From a virus: a stretch of 36,063 bases of DNA. The DNA lies in IMG/VR virus record IMGVR_UViG_3300049732_000389, positions 1 to 36,063 of that record. One strand, written 5' to 3'. The notes below the pieces were generated by a model. That model made no database searches, was not told where the DNA came from, and saw only the letters and a list, made by a program, of their open reading frames with translations. The translations under genes and the position numbers were made by a program. Below are positions 1,823-30,991 of this stretch, piece by piece (the first letter of the stretch is position 1; the number at the start of each line of letters is the position of its first letter).

Positions 1823-1986
1823 GGGTCCACCTCCTCGCCGCAGCGGTGCGGCGCCGCGGCGGCACAGGCCAGACACAGCACGGCCCGCCAGCACCGCGGG
1901 CACTGGTCGCACGCGGTACACGCCGAGCGGCCGCAGCGGACGCACCGGCCCGTCCGCCGGCGGCCGCAGTTGTCGCAGGGGCTCAC
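1819..1986 (-). CDS. Very Cys-rich zinc-binding miniprotein
   Basis: This 55-residue protein has 11 cysteines spaced largely as CxxC pairs: C4-x2-C7, C15-x2-C18, C23-x2-C26, C29-x2-C32, C38-x2-C41 and C49. Such density implies binding of two or more zinc ions, as in tandem zinc ribbons or rubredoxin-like knuckles. The GTG start comes directly after the upstream stop with no gap, and the stop overlaps the next ATG as ATGA. The overlapping alternative frame (start 2020) encodes low-complexity Arg/Pro sequence and is not preferred. Confidence 0.6.
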   Translation of the reverse strand: MSPCDNCGRRRTGRCVRCGRSACTACDQCPRCWRAVLCLACAAAAPHRCGEEVDP

Positions 1987-2184
1987 TCACCATTCCGCCT
2001 TGCAGCTCGGGCAGTCGCATTCTTCTTCTTCATCCAGTTCTTGCCGCTCGAGCCATGCGTCATATCCTTCCGGGTCGTTTTCCCGCCACTGCGCGTAGCC
2101 TTCAGGATCAACGCACTTAGCACACTCGCAGTATTCCTCGCACGGCCCGTGAGCACCACACGACCAACATCCACGGAAACTCAG
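1987..2184 (-). CDS. Acidic Cys-rich protein, probable CTG start
   Basis: This 65-residue frame encodes two Cys clusters around an acidic aromatic centre. The N-terminal cluster is CWSCGAHGPCEEYCECAKC (residues 6 to 24), the middle has DPEGYAQWREND and a near-repeat DPEGYDAWLE, and the C-terminal cluster is CDCPSC (56 to 61). It looks protein-like and zinc-binding. There is no in-frame ATG, GTG or TTG between the preceding stop and the first Cys. The best start is CTG at 2184, which overlaps the upstream TGA as CTGA and follows AGGAG by 5 bases. This mirrors the ATGA and GTGA overlaps used elsewhere in the operon. Confidence 0.55.
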   Translation of the reverse strand: MSFRGCWSCGAHGPCEEYCECAKCVDPEGYAQWRENDPEGYDAWLERQELDEEEECDCPSCKAEW

Positions 2185-3035
2185 AAGAGCTCCTGCTGAT
2201 GCCGCGGGCAGTAGTTCAGGGGCTCACGTCGCGCGCGCGGTGGCCGCGTGGGCCGATTGCACAGACACGGCAACTCGCCGTTGTGGCGATTAAAGGCGTC
2301 GCGGAGCATCCGCCACGCCCGCTTCTCGGTCTTCTTGGGATTGGCCCGCAAGTCCTCGTGTACGTCGATGAGTTTGCTGAGTCGCTCCGCGATCAGGCGG
2401 TCCCCGCCGCGCACATCGTGCCCGAGGTCATCGATGTCGGAGATCAGCCTATCGGTCGCCTTGTCGACGACTCCGCGAACCACCTTCGCGATGTCCTCGA
2501 CGATGGCGTACTTGACGGCATCGAGCTGGCTTGCGGTCTCGCCGCGGATGACTCCCTCGAGATCGGGCGGATCGAGCGGCTGTGCGACGTGCGGTTCCTG
2601 GAACCGCAACGGCAACGTGTACCCGGTGGTCTCACCGAACAGAGCACGGAGATTGCTGGCTGGTTGCTGCCCGTCGCCCGTGTTGAAGAGGATCTCGGTG
2701 ATGATGCGGGCCAAGTTGCGCTGGATGCCGCGCACGAGATCCGATTTCGCAGTACGACTGCTATCAATACGCATCAGCGCCCACGGTAGGCCATCAGCCA
2801 AGCGGACACAGAAGACTTCTCGTCGCTGCCCATCAAGCTGTGGTGCCTTAAGGCACCACAGGTCCTCATCGATATTCGTCTTCAGCGCTTCGTGGTCACG
2901 CTCAATCCCGATCAGCTCGCAGACGCGCCGCCAGATGATCCATGATTCCTCCGGCGTCGGTCCCACGATGATCCACTTGTTCGCGATCTCGACCGCAATG
3001 CGTTCCACCTCAACCATGAGCGTCTCGTCGTCCAT
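2181..3035 (-). CDS. Antirepressor-like protein (P22 Ant N-terminal-like)
   Basis: A 284-residue protein. Residues about 35 to 115 contain a pattern (VCELIGIERDHEALK, then REVFCVRL, LPWALMRIDSSR, a long amphipathic helix) that resembles the N-terminal domain of P22-type phage antirepressors. In these, a predicted catalytic-type sheet region is followed by a helix. The middle (about 175 to 235) looks coiled-coil-like. The C-terminus carries two Cys groups (PCLCNR and YCPRH) that could bind zinc. The ATG lies 11 bases after the replication gene stop. Antirepressors counter a prophage repressor, but the resemblance here is by motif only, so the call is tentative. Confidence 0.45.
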   Translation of the reverse strand: MDDETLMVEVERIAVEIANKWIIVGPTPEESWIIWRRVCELIGIERDHEALKTNIDEDLWCLKAPQLDGQRREVFCVRLADGLPWALMRIDSSRTAKSDLVRGIQRNLARIITEILFNTGDGQQPASNLRALFGETTGYTLPLRFQEPHVAQPLDPPDLEGVIRGETASQLDAVKYAIVEDIAKVVRGVVDKATDRLISDIDDLGHDVRGGDRLIAERLSKLIDVHEDLRANPKKTEKRAWRMLRDAFNRHNGELPCLCNRPTRPPRARREPLNYCPRHQQELF

Positions 3036-3046
3036 CGCAGACTCCC

Positions 3047-3787
3047 TCAGAGTTCGACGTGTTCCTGCGGAACATTTTGAAGTCCTCGCTCACTCCGCGT
3101 GGCGAGCGAGGCCAGGAGGCCGGCGACCACGGGTGCTAGGGGTCGGTGGCCGTGGTTCGGGCCGTGGTGCGCGGTTTCGTGGCGCGCCGGGCGTTGGCCT
3201 CGGGGATCGCCCTCGTCGCCGGTCGAATCCCGTTCACCAGAACTCCGATCCTGTACCCGGGTCCGACCGGGCATCTGGGCGCCCGAGTTATCCACACGTG
3301 ACTGTCTTGATAGATCGATAGATCGATAGATCGATCCTCGAGGAAGGTTCTGGAGACCTCTAGAAACCTCGCGCATCCTCGTGAGGGCTCTAGAGAAAGC
3401 CTCGGCGCCAGCGGCCGTCCACGCGGGAAGGCGCGATTTTGCTGGATGCGAGACCTTCTGATGGTCGTGCCAGGAGTGAAACTCGAGGTAAAGGGGCGAA
3501 TCGGGTTGTCCACCGTTATCCACAGGTTGTCCACCGTTATCCACAGCGTATCCACGGACCAACCCTGTAGAGACCACCTCCTCGAGGCCTTGGACCACGT
3601 CCGCAGGTCGGACCCGGGCGTGATATCCCCACACGAGCACCCGAAACTGGTCCGGATCGAAGATGAGCCGTCCATGATCGTCGGCCTGCGTCAGCATCGC
3701 GACCCACAGACGGAACGCACGATCGGACAGCCGGCCGACCTTCCGGTGGAGCATCGCCTCTGGCTTTAAGGTTCTGATGCGGGCCAT
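3047..3787 (-). CDS. Phage replication initiator / replisome organizer-like protein
   Basis: This 246-residue protein starts MARIRTLKPEAMLHRKVGRL, followed by FRLWVAMLTQADDHGRLIFD. That is the typical N-terminal winged-helix region of phage replisome-organizer and DnaD-like replication proteins. Residues 82 to 95 are a tandem VDNGGQP repeat. Residues about 120 to 246 are low-complexity and basic, without a recognisable helicase-loader domain. The gene overlaps the RusA-like gene by 22 bases. The codons of residues 82 to 95 and about 151 to 167 coincide with DnaA-box and iteron-like DNA (see the origin entry), an arrangement like lambda O, whose gene contains the phage origin. Confidence 0.7.
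   Translation of the reverse strand: MARIRTLKPEAMLHRKVGRLSDRAFRLWVAMLTQADDHGRLIFDPDQFRVLVWGYHARVRPADVVQGLEEVVSTGLVRGYAVDNGGQPVDNGGQPDSPLYLEFHSWHDHQKVSHPAKSRLPAWTAAGAEAFSRALTRMREVSRGLQNLPRGSIYRSIDLSRQSRVDNSGAQMPGRTRVQDRSSGERDSTGDEGDPRGQRPARHETAHHGPNHGHRPLAPVVAGLLASLATRSERGLQNVPQEHVEL
3311..3334. repeat. Tandem 8-bp repeat TAGATCGA x3
   Basis: TAGATCGA is repeated three times without interruption, giving GATC every 8 bases in an otherwise very G+C-rich genome. Eight is not a multiple of three, so each copy is read in a different codon frame (encoding IYRSIDLS). Selection for a repeated peptide therefore cannot explain the array. It is probably a protein-binding or duplex-opening element of the origin. 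Confidence 0.85.
3505..3546. repeat. Two tandem 21-bp repeats, each with a DnaA box
   Basis: Each unit is a G followed by TTGTCCACCGTTATCCACAG, so each has one near-match and one exact DnaA box spaced 10 bases apart (one helical turn). The two units abut exactly at 3525/3526. In the overlapping gene they encode the peptide repeat VDNGGQP. Confidence 0.9.
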
Positions 3788-4203
3788 AGCGCCTCCCCTG
3801 GCGCGGTGACAGGTTGGGTCAGCGTAGCGACGGTCAATGTCAAGCCGGGCTTGGACCCGTAGACCTTCCGCACGCGAAGGTCCACGATCTGCGCGTCATC
3901 CTTCCAGAGCACGCCATTCAGCGCGTCGAGCTGGTGTTTGAGCAGGTTCTCAGCATCGGGCCGCACGCAGGGCGCCGGACGATGGCGTGGCGAGACCGCG
4001 CGGGGCCGCGGGAACGTGTAGACGAGGTCGAGGACGAGCGGCCCGATGAGGGGCCGCATCGGCGCATGCTCGCGGGCCACGACGGCCACGTAGTCGCCCC
4101 ACGCGGTGTTGCGGCGCAACGGGAAGGCCCGGCCATCAGGACGCCGCACCACGGACCCCGTCTGGCTCGCCTTCGGGATGCCCGGACAGAAGAACGTGAT
4201 CAT
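3766..4203 (-). CDS. rusA: RusA-like Holliday junction resolvase
   Basis: This 145-residue protein matches the size and layout of RusA-family crossover-junction endonucleases. It starts ITFFCPGIPKASQTG and has a mid-domain VLDLVYTFPRPR. The metal-site block RPDAENLLKHQLDALNGVLW, then KDD, gives candidate ligands D83, E85 and D102/D103, and K89 is conserved. E. coli RusA uses Asp at the position corresponding to E85, so this is an Asp-to-Glu variant. It would resolve branched recombination or replication intermediates, fitting a role beside Bet and the initiator. The ATG at 4203 sits in an ATGA overlap with a tiny upstream frame. Confidence 0.85.
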   Translation of the reverse strand: MITFFCPGIPKASQTGSVVRRPDGRAFPLRRNTAWGDYVAVVAREHAPMRPLIGPLVLDLVYTFPRPRAVSPRHRPAPCVRPDAENLLKHQLDALNGVLWKDDAQIVDLRVRKVYGSKPGLTLTVATLTQPVTAPGEALWPASEP

Positions 4204-4262
4204 CGCCCGCGAAACGTCTCCTCCAGCCACGCCGCGTAGAACAGGTAATCGCGCAGGCTCAT
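4200..4262 (-). CDS. Possible 20-residue microprotein
   Basis: The frame encodes MSLRDYLFYAAWLEETFRGR. Its ATG overlaps the stop of the upstream gene as ATGA, and its own TGA overlaps the rusA ATG as ATGA. It therefore fills exactly the gap between two tightly coupled genes. The sequence is an amphipathic helix-like peptide with aromatic residues. It may be a real microprotein or simply a coupling leader for rusA translation, whose ribosome site (GGAGGAG) lies inside it. Confidence 0.45.
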   Translation of the reverse strand: MSLRDYLFYAAWLEETFRGR

Positions 4263-4471: not shown

Positions 4472-4698
4472 CAGCCGATCGCCTTGAGCCACCCCGCGCG
4501 CAGACAGCACCCCTCACAGATCACTCGGAGGATGGCGATGTCGTGCTCGTCGGGGCTATCACAGAAGACTTCGCCCAGTTCGCGCCGGGTCGCCCCGACG
4601 ATGTGGGCGACCGTCGCGCCGTCCTCGACATGCCGACAGACGATGTAGCCAAGACGCCGTCCATCGGTTCCGCAGGCCACGTAGGGATAGCGCGTCAT
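4471..4698 (-). CDS. Hypothetical protein
   Basis: A 75-residue protein (MTRYPYVACGTDGRRLGYIV at the start) with five cysteines, including CEGCC near the C-terminus, and a mixed alpha/beta appearance (VAHIVGATRRELGEVF). It starts in an ATGA overlap with the methyltransferase stub and ends in TGATG with the next gene. It does not look like the missing remainder of the methyltransferase: there is no Pro-Cys catalytic motif and no ENV or QRR motif. Confidence 0.6.
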   Translation of the reverse strand: MTRYPYVACGTDGRRLGYIVCRHVEDGATVAHIVGATRRELGEVFCDSPDEHDIAILRVICEGCCLRAGWLKAIG

Positions 4699-4898
4699 GC
4701 CGGCGCCTGCGTCTCGTCGCCGCTCCCGCATGGGAGCCAAGAGCGAACGTCTCCATATCGCGGAACGGCAGGCCATCGCCGCTCGAGGACGCGGGTGCAG
4801 AAAGGGTCGATCTCGACCTGTCCGATGCAGACGTGTCCGGAGCGCTCGAGTCCAAGGTCAAACCCTCCGATCCCGGCGAAGAGGGAGAGGTAGCGCAT
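4695..4898 (-). pseudogene. Truncated C5-cytosine DNA methyltransferase (N-terminal stub)
   Basis: This 67-residue frame begins exactly like a C5-cytosine methyltransferase. MRYLSLFAGIGGFDLGLE carries motif I for S-adenosylmethionine binding, followed by the motif II/III-like VEIDPFCTRVLERRWP and YGDVR. It then ends at LPCGSGDETQAPA without the catalytic Pro-Cys motif IV, the ENV motif or the target recognition domain. Full enzymes are usually 300 residues or more. The start is intact and follows the upstream TAA directly, and the stop overlaps the next ATG as ATGA. It is either a deletion remnant or a retained cofactor-binding miniprotein. Confidence 0.8.
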
Positions 4899-5273
4899 TT
4901 ACTGGTCGGCGGCCCGGAGCGCCGCGGCGAGGTGCTGCACGAGCACCACGTCGTGGTCTCCGAACGTCTCCACCAGCCACGCGAGCGCGAGCGCCCCGCG
5001 CCCCAGCCCCGGATGCGCCGCCTTGAAGGCGGGCGCGAGCCACGGGTCCGGGAGGTCGGCGTGCGTCTTCGCGCCGGGCTGCCGCCACCGCTGGTGCGCG
5101 TGCGTGTACGGCGCGTGCGGACAGCCGCCGCACGGCGGGTGCTCCGCGAACCAGGGATCGGCGCGGTCGTCCACCAGGACGCCCGACTCGTAGGGCTCGC
5201 CCCGCCCGGCCGTGAGTGCGGCCTGGGCGGCGAGGATGCCCGCGATCATCGCCGGGGGGACAGCGTCGCTCAC
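4899..5273 (-). CDS. Hypothetical protein downstream of Bet
   Basis: A 124-residue protein beginning [20 protein letters not shown]. The middle contains [18 protein letters not shown], a possible metal site with two Cys and three His. The C-terminal part is helical ([20 protein letters not shown]). The GTG start forms a GTGA overlap with the bet stop. In phages this slot often holds the exonuclease or single-strand-binding partner of the annealing protein, but no nuclease motif or OB-fold is recognisable here. Confidence 0.65.
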
Positions 5274-7026: not shown

Positions 7027-8112
7027 ATGCCGGACCGGCGCCGCACCAGCCAGCGCTCTTCCCCCGTCGTCGGCCATCCCGGCATCCGGCACGAGCGGCT
7101 GCCGAACGGCCGTGTGCGCTACCGTGTGCAAGTCCAAGTCGCGGGCCAGCGCGTCTCCAAGATCGCGGCCACGCTCGAGGCCGCCTTGGAGATCGAGAAG
7201 CGCCTGCGGGCCGGCGATGTCGTCGACACGCGCCCCGCGCCCGAAGACCCCGAAGCCACCGTCGACGATGGCTTGCGCCACTACGTGCTCGACCTCGAGG
7301 GGCGGCGCAAGGACGGCCGCCGCGCCGAGCAAGTCCGGGGCGCGCTCCGGGCGCTCCTCCCGGAGATCGCCGCGAAGCCGCTGGGCGCGCTGATCCTCGA
7401 GGATGTCAGCGCCTACGTGGGGGCGCGCGAGCGGGCCGGCATCAAGCCGAACACGATCGTCCGCGACCTCCGCGTGTTCCGCGCCATGCTCCGCAAGGCG
7501 CGGCCCGACCTCAAGGTGCCCGCCGAGCTCTTCCCGGCCGAGGATCTGACGCGCGTGCGGATGCTGACGCCCGAGCAGCGGGCCGAGGTGTTCCCGCTCC
7601 TGAGCGCCATGTGCGGGGAGCGGTTCGCGCTGATCGCCGCCCTCGCGATGCTGGGCATCATGCGGCTCACCGAGGTCCGCACCCTGCGGCGGGAGATGAT
7701 CCATCTGCCGGCCCGCGTCATTCTGTTGCCGCGGACCAAGGGACGCAAGCCCCGGCCGCGCGTGGTCCGGCTCAGCGACGAGGCCGTCACCCTCGTCACG
7801 CGGGCGCTCCTGATCAGCCCGCATCCTAGCTGGGTGTTCCCGAACGCGCAATCCGGCGAGCCATACTCCCGCGTCCACATCAGCCGCTGCTGGCGCAAGG
7901 CGGCCCGCGCCTGCGGCCTCGCGGGGTTCACCTTCCACGACCTGCGGCACCACGGCCCCACCGTCGCCGTCAACGCGGGGGCGAACAGCGCCACGCTGAA
8001 GGCGATGGGTGGGTGGCTGAGCGATGCGTCGATGCAACGCTACACGCATGTCCTCAACCCGACCGTGGACGCCTTCATGGGGATGATCACGACGCGTCCG
8101 TCCCCCGCTTGA
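7027..8112 (+). CDS. int: Tyrosine-recombinase phage integrase
   Basis: This 361-residue protein has an N-terminal arm-binding-like region (residues 1 to about 75), a core-binding SAM-like domain (about 78 to 165) and a catalytic domain (about 175 to 361). Catalytic residues are visible: R213 in MRLTEVRTL, K238 in RTKGRK, H304 and R307 in FHDLRHH, W330 in MGGWLSD (Trp in place of the usual His) and nucleophile Y339 in QRYTHV. It should integrate the phage at a host tRNA gene using the core at 6580 to 6624. The 3' end overlaps the convergent minus-strand gene by 26 bases. Confidence 0.95.
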   Translation: MPDRRRTSQRSSPVVGHPGIRHERLPNGRVRYRVQVQVAGQRVSKIAATLEAALEIEKRLRAGDVVDTRPAPEDPEATVDDGLRHYVLDLEGRRKDGRRAEQVRGALRALLPEIAAKPLGALILEDVSAYVGARERAGIKPNTIVRDLRVFRAMLRKARPDLKVPAELFPAEDLTRVRMLTPEQRAEVFPLLSAMCGERFALIAALAMLGIMRLTEVRTLRREMIHLPARVILLPRTKGRKPRPRVVRLSDEAVTLVTRALLISPHPSWVFPNAQSGEPYSRVHISRCWRKAARACGLAGFTFHDLRHHGPTVAVNAGANSATLKAMGGWLSDASMQRYTHVLNPTVDAFMGMITTRPSPA

Positions 8113-9501: not shown

Positions 9502-10385
9502 CGCGCCCAGGGCGGCCGCGCGCGATCGCCGAGCTCCTGACCGTGCGAGAGCGCGGCGCCGTACTCGTGGACGATCTCCGAGAACCGGGCATGGTCCTTC
9601 AAGGCTCGGAGCATCGCCGCGACCTGGATCATCTCGTGGCCGATCCCGACGGCGGTCCAGTGGGGAGACGGAGTGAGGTGCGCCTCCATGGAGAGGCGAT
9701 ACACCATGAAGAGCTTCCAGAGCGTCCGGTCCTGCTCCGTGCCCGCCATCATGGGGCGCTGCCAGCGCGGCAGGCTCGCCCAGCGCTTCGCGTCCGCCAG
9801 GTTGACCACTGCGCGCTCGTAGAACTCGCGCTGCTCCTCCGGGGGCACCGCGGCGAGGGCCTCGAGCAGGGGCACGTTGCGGGCGTGGCCCTCGCGGATC
9901 AAGCGCTCATCGAGGGCGGCCTTGATCGTCGGGAAGAGACATGACGGAGCTATGCGCGACGTCCATCGGCGACGAGCGCGCTCAAAGAGGTTCGCTACTT
10001 CATCTGGCGGGAGTCGCGCGATCACCAAGTCGGTATAGGTCTCGCCTTCAAGTTCGGCGTACCGACGTCGACCAAGTCGTGCGTGGATGACCTTCCTGCA
10101 CTGTGGACAATTCTTTTGGCCCTTCCACTGTGCTCGCGGGAGACCACATGTCCGGCATGGACCGCGTTGCTTTCCCGGGACGGCGGCGTTATCCGCCCTG
10201 TTATCCTTTCCACGGAAGCCGCGCTGTCGTCGGACCGCATCGCGCAAGCAGGAACGGCACCGCCACCGGTCATCACTCCATCGCCAGTTCGTCGCGCCGC
10301 ACGTATGTGGACCCGCGGGTGGCGGACGACGGACAACGGTGGCTCCAGCGTTCGTGCCCTCGTTGCCCGTCGTCGCCTCGGTCAT
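9498..10385 (-). CDS. Zinc-finger protein of unknown function
   Basis: A 295-residue protein with two N-terminal zinc modules. One is C29 with C43-x2-C46 (HTCGATNWRWSDDRWRCRSC). The other is C77-x2-C80 with C93-x2-C96 (PCRTCG, then KNCPQCRK). The remaining two thirds are helical, without a recognised domain. It lies 3 bases downstream of the ParB-like gene, and the two form an isolated minus-strand pair. The N-terminal fingers suggest nucleic-acid binding. It is not a homologue of any standard phage module that I recognise. Confidence 0.75.
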   Translation of the reverse strand: MTEATTGNEGTNAGATVVRRPPPAGPHTCGATNWRWSDDRWRCRSCLRDAVRRQRGFRGKDNRADNAAVPGKQRGPCRTCGLPRAQWKGQKNCPQCRKVIHARLGRRRYAELEGETYTDLVIARLPPDEVANLFERARRRWTSRIAPSCLFPTIKAALDERLIREGHARNVPLLEALAAVPPEEQREFYERAVVNLADAKRWASLPRWQRPMMAGTEQDRTLWKLFMVYRLSMEAHLTPSPHWTAVGIGHEMIQVAAMLRALKDHARFSEIVHEYGAALSHGQELGDRARPPWAR

Positions 10386-10388
10386 ACG

Positions 10389-11264
10389 TTAGGCCGCCTT
10401 CTTCTTCCGGCGGCTCTCGCCAGGAAAGCGGGCGATGATTGCGTTCTTCACCGAGCCTCCCGCGCGCTTGTACCGGAGCGCGTTGCGGGTCCACTTCACC
10501 ACGTCCTTGATCTTGGCGCCGCGCTTCGTGTGGGCGGTCTGCATCTGATCCCAGATCTGCTTGGCGTACATCTGCCGGGCCGAGCCATCGGGCGCCGTGG
10601 CCCCGGCGTTGACCGCGTCCAGCAGAAGCTCGTCCACCTCGGCCTCGGGCTCCTCGTGGAGCATGATCTCCTGCGCCCGGGCCACGGCGAGCAGCGCGGG
10701 CTTGAACACGGCCACGACGGAGACCTCCTTGTCGCCGAGCCACTCGAGCGGCTTGCGGACGCAGGTGAGGATGAAGTCCCGGTGCGTGTCGAAGAAGGCG
10801 ATCAGCTCACGATCCGTCGGCCCGGCGGTGCGACAGATGGCCTTCGTGACCGTGGCGGCCAGATCGCGCTCCTGTTTGCTCGTGAAGAGGGCCGGGACGT
10901 GGATGGCGAGCTGGTCGGCCAGCGTCCGGCCCGCGCCCTGGTCAAGGCCCAGCGTGTCGGCGATGGTGACGATCGTGACGGTGATGGCGACGTCGGCCTC
11001 GATCGCGGCGCGGCAGCGGTGCTGCCCGTCCGCGAGGCGATCGTTCGGCAGGAACCGGAGCGGCGGGGACTTCCGGGCGTCCCAGTTGCCGGAGAGGATC
11101 TCGCGCTTGAGCTTCTCCACGTGGCCCTTGCGGAGATCGCGGTTCACCGGATCGTGGGCCAGGATGTCGGCGGCGAGCGCGGGCGTGAGGTTGACTTCGG
11201 GGATGCTGTGCTCGGCCTTGAGGGCGGTGATGAGGTCCTGATACGACGCAAAGCTCCGTGACAT
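10389..11264 (-). CDS. ParB-like / DGQHR-motif protein
   Basis: A 291-residue protein with an N-terminal ParB-like region. NRDLRKGHVEKLKREILSGN (41 to 60) is followed by LRFLPNDRLADGQHRCRAAI (69 to 88), containing the DGQHR signature at 79 to 83. Proteins with this motif occur in many phages and mobile elements; some ParB-fold members hydrolyse nucleotides, others act as nucleases. The rest is helical and ends in a basic tail (GESRRKKKAA). The ATG follows AGGAG by 8 bases. It forms an operon with the zinc-finger gene. Confidence 0.75.
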   Translation of the reverse strand: MSRSFASYQDLITALKAEHSIPEVNLTPALAADILAHDPVNRDLRKGHVEKLKREILSGNWDARKSPPLRFLPNDRLADGQHRCRAAIEADVAITVTIVTIADTLGLDQGAGRTLADQLAIHVPALFTSKQERDLAATVTKAICRTAGPTDRELIAFFDTHRDFILTCVRKPLEWLGDKEVSVVAVFKPALLAVARAQEIMLHEEPEAEVDELLLDAVNAGATAPDGSARQMYAKQIWDQMQTAHTKRGAKIKDVVKWTRNALRYKRAGGSVKNAIIARFPGESRRKKKAA

Positions 11265-29063: not shown

Positions 29064-30560
29064 TCAGGCTCCCGCCAGGCGGGCCGCCTCGACGAGGAGC
29101 GGCCGGTAGCGGTCGAGGTTCTCGGCCACGCGCGCATAGGGCGGCTGGATCGTGTCGCCGTTGACCTCGACGAGGAGCGCGCTGAAGCGCGTTTCCCAGG
29201 TGATCCAATCGTCCACGCAGCCGGGCCGCGGCGCGGGCACGGTGCTGATCTCCGCCTTGCTGATCTGCGCGCTGTCGCAGTCCACGAGCGCGGCGAGCCG
29301 GCCCGCGAGCGCGGCGTAATACGGCTCGCGCGGGTGCGGATTCAGCGTCCCGCCCCACGGATAGCCGACGGCGCGCCCGACGGGACTCCCGTGGAAGTTC
29401 AGCGCGAGGCCCTGCGGCGCCTGCTCCGCGATCTCCCGGATCGCCGCCGCGCTCGCGTCCACCTCGATGGCGGCCATCGGGCCCGTGCCCCAGAAGTTGC
29501 GCGACGACCAGTCGCTCGAGGCATAGGTGGACGGCTCGCCCCAGTACTTCCCCCACACGCGATTGAGATTCACGCCGGGGTAGCGTTCGCGGTTCGGGCG
29601 CAGCCCGCTCATCGACCAGTCGCGGTCCTCGCCCTCGCCCAGTACCCCGCCGAGGTCCCACGTGGCGCCGACCGGCATCGCGGAGAAATCCAGGTTCTTG
29701 CGGCAGAAGTACGGCGCGAGCCCGTGACGCGGGCCGTTCTGCACGAGCCACAGGCCGTCGGGATTCGGGACGATGACGTTGACGATGTGGCGCGTCTCCC
29801 AGACGCGGCGGCCCTCGCCCGTCGTGAGGAGCCAGACGAGCCACTCGTAGCCGAGCGGCGACTGATCGATCTCGTCGGCGTGATCGCCCCACCGGCAGTA
29901 GAGGGTCGGGTGCGTCGGGTCGCCGAGCTGGTACTGGACGAGGTCGTAGCCGAGGCAGCGGTCGCCGTTCGGGATGGTGACGCCGCCCACGGCCTTGGCG
30001 TGGCTCATCCCGTAGGTCAGCGCCCGCAGCTCGGGATACGCCTCGGCCAGCGCGGCGAGCCGCGCATACAGCGTCTCGACGTAGGGATACCCGCCGTTAT
30101 AGGTCGTCTCCTCCTGCGGCGGGAGCGGTTCCTCCGTCACGAGGAAGGTGAGCGTGTTGCTGCGGGCGCCGCCGTCCACGACGGTGACGTAGCGCGGGCC
30201 CACCGTCGTGAGCCCGCCCGCCGCCGTCCGCATCGTCAGCTCCGTCGCGGACACGTAGCTCGTGCCGCTGGCGGGCTCGCCGCCGAGCGCCCCTTGCTTG
30301 CTACTCCAGTAAATCCGGCTCGCCGGCGTGAACCCGCTGCCCTGCACGCGAATCAGCGCGTTCGCGCTGCCGGTGGGCAAGGTCGGCGGCACCAGCGCAC
30401 TCAGCCCGAGCGCCGGCGCCACGTGCGGCGTCAGCGTGACATCGACATCCGCGACATACGTATTCGCCGGGACGGCCGTCGGCTCGCCGGCCGTGAGGCT
30501 CACGCTCGTCGTCGCGGGCGCCCACCACGCCCGCGGATTCAGGCGGGGCGGCAGCGGCAT
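29064..30560 (-). CDS. M14-family zinc carboxypeptidase with TIG-like domain
   Basis: A 498-residue protein. Residues about 65 to 145 form a TIG/IPT-like domain (ALIRVQGSGFTPASRIYWSS). Residues about 155 to 495 are an M14 metallocarboxypeptidase. HADE supplies zinc ligands H227 and E230; VNLNRVW gives R334; LNFHGSP gives zinc ligand H390; LLVEVNG gives catalytic E465. NPDGLW is also typical of the fold. All key residues are present, so an active enzyme is likely. Some M14 phage or bacterial enzymes cut gamma-D-glutamyl-diaminopimelate links of peptidoglycan; the substrate here is unknown. No signal peptide is seen, so a virion-associated role is plausible. Confidence 0.85.
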   Translation of the reverse strand: MPLPPRLNPRAWWAPATTSVSLTAGEPTAVPANTYVADVDVTLTPHVAPALGLSALVPPTLPTGSANALIRVQGSGFTPASRIYWSSKQGALGGEPASGTSYVSATELTMRTAAGGLTTVGPRYVTVVDGGARSNTLTFLVTEEPLPPQEETTYNGGYPYVETLYARLAALAEAYPELRALTYGMSHAKAVGGVTIPNGDRCLGYDLVQYQLGDPTHPTLYCRWGDHADEIDQSPLGYEWLVWLLTTGEGRRVWETRHIVNVIVPNPDGLWLVQNGPRHGLAPYFCRKNLDFSAMPVGATWDLGGVLGEGEDRDWSMSGLRPNRERYPGVNLNRVWGKYWGEPSTYASSDWSSRNFWGTGPMAAIEVDASAAAIREIAEQAPQGLALNFHGSPVGRAVGYPWGGTLNPHPREPYYAALAGRLAALVDCDSAQISKAEISTVPAPRPGCVDDWITWETRFSALLVEVNGDTIQPPYARVAENLDRYRPLLVEAARLAGA

Positions 30561-30991
30561 CAGGGATACCCGCTCCGCAGCCGTACCGTGGGCGTGACCT
30601 CGATCGCGTCGCCCTCGTTTTCGATGTGATACGGCGCATCCGGAAACCGTTGCGCGCCCCACAGGGACCCGCTGTCCAGCCCGACGAGGAACGCGCCGTA
30701 GACATCGGCCGGCGCCCCGGCCGCGGTGAAGACGAAGTGCTGGGCCGGCGCCGACGCCTTCGCCGGGGTGTTCGTCCCCGCATCGGCCGCCGTGAGCGTC
30801 CAGACCCCGGCCGCGAGCGCCTTCGCCGCGTAGCCGTGGCCGCTCATCTCGACGTAATCGGCCGTCACGTCCGCGAGGCCCGGCGTCGTGTCGTTGACGA
30901 ACAGCCGCAGCGAGAGCGTCTCGGGCGCCTCGATGCCGAGCGCGATCGCGAGCATCTGTACCTCGCCCTCGTCGGGCAGGACGGCGGGCAT
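30560..30991 (-). CDS. Conserved phage structural protein
   Basis: A 143-residue beta-rich protein (MLAIALGIEAPETLSLRLFV, then NDTTPGLADVTADYVEMSG, VYGAFLVGL, LWGAQRF). The pattern SLRLFVND.TPG is familiar from small proteins in structural clusters of long-tailed phages, often near fibres. The function is not assigned. The stop overlaps the carboxypeptidase start as TGATG. Confidence 0.6.
   Translation of the reverse strand: MPAVLPDEGEVQMLAIALGIEAPETLSLRLFVNDTTPGLADVTADYVEMSGHGYAAKALAAGVWTLTAADAGTNTPAKASAPAQHFVFTAAGAPADVYGAFLVGLDSGSLWGAQRFPDAPYHIENEGDAIEVTPTVRLRSGYP

Follow-up and report, generated by a model that had tools for sequence, protein, structure and literature searches.

The replication initiator gene of the virus record IMGVR_UViG_3300049732_000389 (36,063 bp, GC content 71%; this whole stretch is called the window below) quite probably contains the phage replication origin. 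The putative origin occupies approximately positions 3288–3556 and would function with the initiator bound to iterons, DnaA bound to its boxes, and melting of the GATAGATC array. The location of an origin inside the initiator gene is well supported, because the segment holds the least stable DNA of the genome, the codon-position signal has been lost from it, and iterons, purine tracts and DnaA boxes are enriched in its homologous counterpart in relatives. The resemblance to lambda ori inside gene O that had been proposed in a sequence-only reading of this DNA is supported. Participation of host DnaA is probable.

DnaA boxes, repeats and duplex stability in the initiator gene

The protein product of the gene matches replication-initiation PHROGs (phrog_2149, E 1.1e-9; phrog_1408, E 1.6e-8), in line with its initial description as replisome-organizer-like. 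A Pfam search with the initiator gave no family match, and comparison of its sequence with solved structures gave none either. AlphaFold2, run on a 70-row alignment, predicts a confident N-terminal winged-helix domain (approximately residues 1–122) and a poorly ordered tail; pLDDT is mostly above 90 at residues 1–140 and about 50 beyond residue 150. In the predicted fold, high-confidence helices are followed by a two-strand wing (strands 77–82 and 99–103). Foldseek matches of this model were mostly winged-helix regulators, but they were weak (best E 0.015). A RusA-like gene adjoins the initiator gene not only here but also in Gordonia phages Leroy and Spooky.

The exact DnaA box TTATCCACA has three copies in the window, all on the plus strand and all inside one 258-bp part of the initiator gene, which agrees with the three boxes within 260 bases noted in the sequence-only reading. 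Its estimate that less than one copy is expected by chance also holds: base composition gives about 0.07 exact copies, and shuffles give 0.91 copies at up to one mismatch. The whole-window scan that it had proposed found no spread of good boxes, the single one-mismatch copy in the genome being at 10102. Two of the exact boxes lie, as described from the letters, in tandem 21-bp repeats together with near-match boxes: each unit of GGTTGTCCACCGTTATCCACA contains one TTGTCCACC box and one exact box. With the GTATCCACG box at 3548 they form a row of five same-facing boxes, weak and strong ones alternating, whose starts (3506, 3516, 3527, 3537 and 3548) are separated by steps of 10, 11, 10 and 11 bp and whose gaps measure 1, 2, 1 and 2 bp.

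Features of the putative origin region and neighbouring genes (window coordinates)
Feature	Position	Strand	Remark
Initiator gene, 246 aa	3047..3787	-	Contains all boxes; winged-helix N-terminus, tail encodes putative origin
Perfect 13-bp inverted repeat, CCCGGGTCCGACC / GGTCGGACCCGGG	arms 3256-3268, 3606-3618		Encloses whole origin region
Exact DnaA box TTATCCACA	3288-3296	+	nt 491 of gene, family-typical position; adjoins candidate unwinding element
Candidate unwinding element: GATAGATC array, contains four GATC sites	3302-3336		Least stable 30-bp segment of genome
Iteron-like array, degenerate; about six units spaced 10-11 bp (consensus ..CTnnGAG)	~3336-3396	-	From periodicity scan
Perfect tandem 21-bp repeat, two units of GGTTGTCCACCGTTATCCACA	3504-3545	+	One weak and one perfect DnaA box per unit
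Near-match DnaA box TTGTCCACC	3506-3514	+	First tandem unit
Exact DnaA box TTATCCACA	3516-3524	+	In tandem repeat
Near-match DnaA box TTGTCCACC	3527-3535	+	Second tandem unit
Exact DnaA box TTATCCACA	3537-3545	+	In tandem repeat
Near-match DnaA box GTATCCACG	3548-3556	+	Fifth box of phased array
RusA-type Holliday-junction resolvase gene	3766..4230	-	Upstream of initiator gene and overlapping it
Tyrosine integrase gene	7027-8112	+	Strand opposite to nearly all other recognisable genes

Duplex stability, suggested as a check for positions 3250–3560, singles out this region at every scale used. The least stable 30-bp segment lies at the array (3302–3336), and with window sizes of 50, 100 and 300 bp the first rank in the genome likewise goes to windows that start at 3286–3299. 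The GATAGATC array itself comprises 3.4 copies at 3309–3335. The second least stable 100-bp segment of the genome starts at 3474 and lies over the box cluster, and the weakest duplex stands between the two DnaA sites, that is, the box at 3288 and the array at 3506–3556. The companion check on GC skew gave no support: the skew is weak, with extremes near 8 kb and 30 kb and no switch near 3.3 kb, and it was dropped as an origin marker because it is not informative. Codon-position GC content is flat in the origin part of the gene (0.56/0.58/0.51, compared with approximately 0.69/0.53/0.92 in the terminase gene).

The sequence-only reading is corrected on its separate iteron-like array: the 8-bp array has the look of an unwinding element, and another array, with a 10-bp period and located at approximately 3336–3396, is more like iterons. 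The five-copy 10-bp periodicity of this second array, 0.58, is the second highest in the window (mean 0.29, standard deviation 0.05), and its units shift in codon phase, unlike what a repeat at the protein level would show.

The peptide encoded by the tandem boxes is VDNGGQPVDNGGQP (VDNGGQP twice), and the structural model places it in the loop that connects the wing strands. The stretch Y80–H109 is 30 residues long in this phage and 16–18 residues long in all 69 aligned relatives; hence, judging from the alignment, the tandem is an insertion of about 13 residues in the wing loop, found in this phage only among those 69 relatives.

Relatives of the initiator and box pairs in other viral DNA

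Phages, IMG/VR and genomes yielded 327 loci with a relative of the initiator gene, which fall into 158 clusters. A search of IMG/VR with the initiator protein alone had matched only a near-identical copy. The gene tail was defined as nt 270–600, and enrichment was measured relative to the flanks. In the 158 clusters the tails are strongly enriched in the iteron-like words CTCACTGAG and GAGGACTCA and in the purine words AGGAAGGGA, and the enriched DNA lies directly 3' of the winged-helix part.

When the cluster of the window was left out, the remaining 157 clusters contained ten exact copies of TTATCCACA or TTGTCCACA inside the gene, all at nt 300–550, and nine outside it, although the flanking DNA amounted to six times more (binomial p 8e-5). 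Among 1,680 9-mers of the same composition, TTATCCACA ranks first in frequency in the gene tails. The box is located approximately 30–75 nt from a purine tract in 9/9 box-bearing relatives, and in one of them (L373) the tract is flanked by a box on each side. In the window this family position is taken by the 3288 box, to which the boxes of the wing loop (nt 242 and 263) come in addition.

Relatives that keep the protein and lack the repeats, which had been named as evidence against an embedded origin, were found in part: no exact box occurs in the gene in 148 of the 157 other clusters, and the tandem insertion is found in 0/69 aligned relatives, yet nine clusters have boxes at the family position. 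The distant phage relatives L003–L013 have no exact TTATCCACA box. Because of the 148 boxless clusters and the absence of the tandem from the aligned relatives, DnaA use is, on these comparisons, lineage-specific, and boxes are not needed across the initiator family; the earlier suggestion that host DnaA takes part stands as probable for this phage within that limit. A link between boxes and missing helicase or loader genes was rejected: DnaC-like genes were present in 0/10 box-bearing records against 3/30 others and DnaB-like genes in 1/10 against 9/30, counts that are not significant and come from records many of which are fragments.

Pairs of TTATCCACA spaced 21 bp apart were found in at least 120 IMG/VR stretches (L014–L133), compared with 27 for the same pairs at 16-bp spacing and seven for the reversed sequence at 21 bp. 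A third box midway, with at most two mismatches, was observed in 8 of 137 pairs, some of them in near-identical sequences, while about 0.2 were obtained with shuffled spacers. The excess suggests that helically phased pairs may serve as a marker of phage origins. Most 21-bp pairs are outside long reading frames. Only one of ten long frames that hold a pair is an initiator (L126), the others including terminase, portal and glycosyltransferase genes, and a box pair in a long frame was therefore rejected as a sign of an embedded origin. The L126 initiator gene (1833–2858, plus strand, 35% GC) has boxes at 2288 and 2309, 21 bp apart and in frame, encoding VDN...VDN; its product matches other PHROG families (replication initiation, O-like and DnaD-like).

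Proposed mechanism, alternatives and known origins

From this arrangement we infer protein binding, melting and origin activity as follows. The winged-helix initiator would bind the 10-bp-periodic array, and host DnaA would bind the 3288 box and assemble on the five phased boxes, with the two perfect boxes anchoring the occupation of the weak ones. Initiator and DnaA together would melt the GATAGATC array, and the host helicase would then be brought in. No DnaB-like or DnaC-like gene was found in this phage, so the helicase and its loading are likely those of the host. We thus read the putative origin as one of the lambda O type that also has DnaA sites, as iteron plasmids do, in the order DnaA array, iterons, weak duplex, DnaA box.

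Alternatively, the origin could work as in lambda with the phage initiator alone, and the DnaA boxes could regulate transcription of the early operon or be dispensable. Most relatives indeed have iterons and purine tracts with no exact DnaA box, and lambda DnaA acts via transcription from pR and not in the origin (PMC7466680). However, the boxes of relatives are at the origin, approximately 30–75 nt from the purine tract, and not at the promoter end of the gene, and in this phage the genome's weakest duplex is flanked by the five phased boxes; we regard this alternative as unlikely. A very improbable explanation is that the boxes form a sink, by which a multicopy phage genome would titrate host DnaA and slow initiation in the host. 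Titration of DnaA by box clusters is established for datA of E. coli, and many viral contigs contain phased pairs, most of which do not fall in long reading frames, but a sink leaves unexplained why an unwinding element and iterons are found at the same place and why the boxes have a family position in the gene.

The account to which we give the least credence denies the boxes any function at the DNA level and assumes that the VDNGGQP codon block was duplicated in a tolerant loop, the boxes arising by chance. The insertion does sit in a length-tolerant wing loop and is unique to this phage. Against chance, rare T-ending codons (GCT 3.5%, CCT 5.9%, CGT 4%) and GAT are used exactly where each exact box needs them, and the third box is outside the duplication, at the family position. 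With the codon usage of the genome, none of 100,000 synonymous recodings had three exact boxes; with that of the gene itself, 6 of 100,000 did. The tandem pair is one duplication, and therefore only about two box events are independent; at least two boxes were produced in 21 of 100,000 trials with genome usage and in 502 of 100,000 with gene usage.

Returning to the origin that uses both the phage initiator and DnaA, we tentatively speculate that this phage moved from a plain lambda-like origin to a DnaA-driven one by growing a phased strong-weak array in a tolerant initiator loop. Host DnaA might then open the origin and load the helicase, the phage protein mainly marking the place, and the 21-bp VDN...VDN design might have arisen separately in other initiator families, for example that of L126.

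In lambda, ori is in the middle of the initiator gene O, with iterons beside an easily melted tract (PMC7466680; PMC5043065), and in phages P27 and 933W two extra iterons add 13 residues to O compared with lambda (PMC7466680). The region described here is similar in its position in the middle of the initiator gene and in the easily melted segment beside repeats, in this case the least stable of the genome; the box repeat adds about 13 residues to the initiator, as the extra iterons do to O. In contrast, the lambda iterons are inverted repeats of a 19-bp sequence that bind O dimers, DnaA acts in lambda via transcription from pR, and in this phage exact DnaA boxes lie in the gene and the initiator belongs to other PHROG families.

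In the R6K gamma origin, DnaA sites bound the A+T-rich region, and iteron plasmids add DnaA sites (PMC5043065). The combination of iterons, an A+T-rich segment and consensus DnaA boxes is shared with P1 and R6K gamma; in contrast to these, the putative origin here is also translated as part of a protein, an integrase gene is present in the phage, and the iterons are short and degenerate. By its layout the phage origin would work like the P1/R6K type, but we do not file it as a member because the boxes are not conserved in relatives (9/157 other clusters). The weak DnaA sites of E. coli oriC form arrays with 2-bp gaps and are occupied cooperatively from strong sites nearby (PMC6070618). Strong boxes beside arrays of weak boxes occur here too, with gaps of 1 or 2 bp, whereas there are only five boxes, in one orientation, with weak and strong ones alternating within a coding sequence. 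For the RepA of mycobacterial prophages, an origin upstream of or within repA was proposed by analogy with lambda (PMC7157519); that case differs in that no repeated motifs were reported in the regions examined, DnaA is unmentioned and the RepA is a different protein (PMC7157519).

Initiator genes that contain an origin are already known, and so are iteron origins that contain DnaA boxes. Their combination, with a phased array of DnaA boxes lying in frame in the initiator's wing loop, was not found in the open-licence papers searched. Here one DNA stretch is both a protein-coding loop and a putative binding array for the host initiator, which makes it a compact and testable case. It also allows origins to be predicted in a large phage family in which few have been mapped; the known hosts of this family are mostly Actinobacteria.

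Phage genome and likely host

An IMG/VR contig that is 99.9% identical to the window (L002) spans both of its ends (positions 1 and 36063; position 4944 of the contig); hence the record is a whole genome, either circular or circularly permuted. By gene content (terminase, portal, capsid, head protease, RecT, RusA and tyrosine integrase) it looks like that of a tailed phage with a temperate lifestyle. An actinobacterial host is suggested for this uncultured phage by its portal protein, which most resembles the portal proteins of Arthrobacter phages (47%). Rfam and tRNA scans of the window were both empty.

A DNA methyltransferase frame at 4695–4898 (minus strand; MRYLSLFAGIGGFDLGLE...) ends after 67 aa and represents a fragment or an interrupted gene. 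By motif it looks cytosine-type, and a Dam-type reading of the GATC array was rejected since the fragment resembles a cytosine enzyme and is cut short. The protein encoded at 10389–11264 (minus strand) matches phrog_5931 and, weakly, a ParB-like family. A zinc carboxypeptidase gene (Peptidase M14; 29064–30662, minus strand) is located between the portal and head protease genes.
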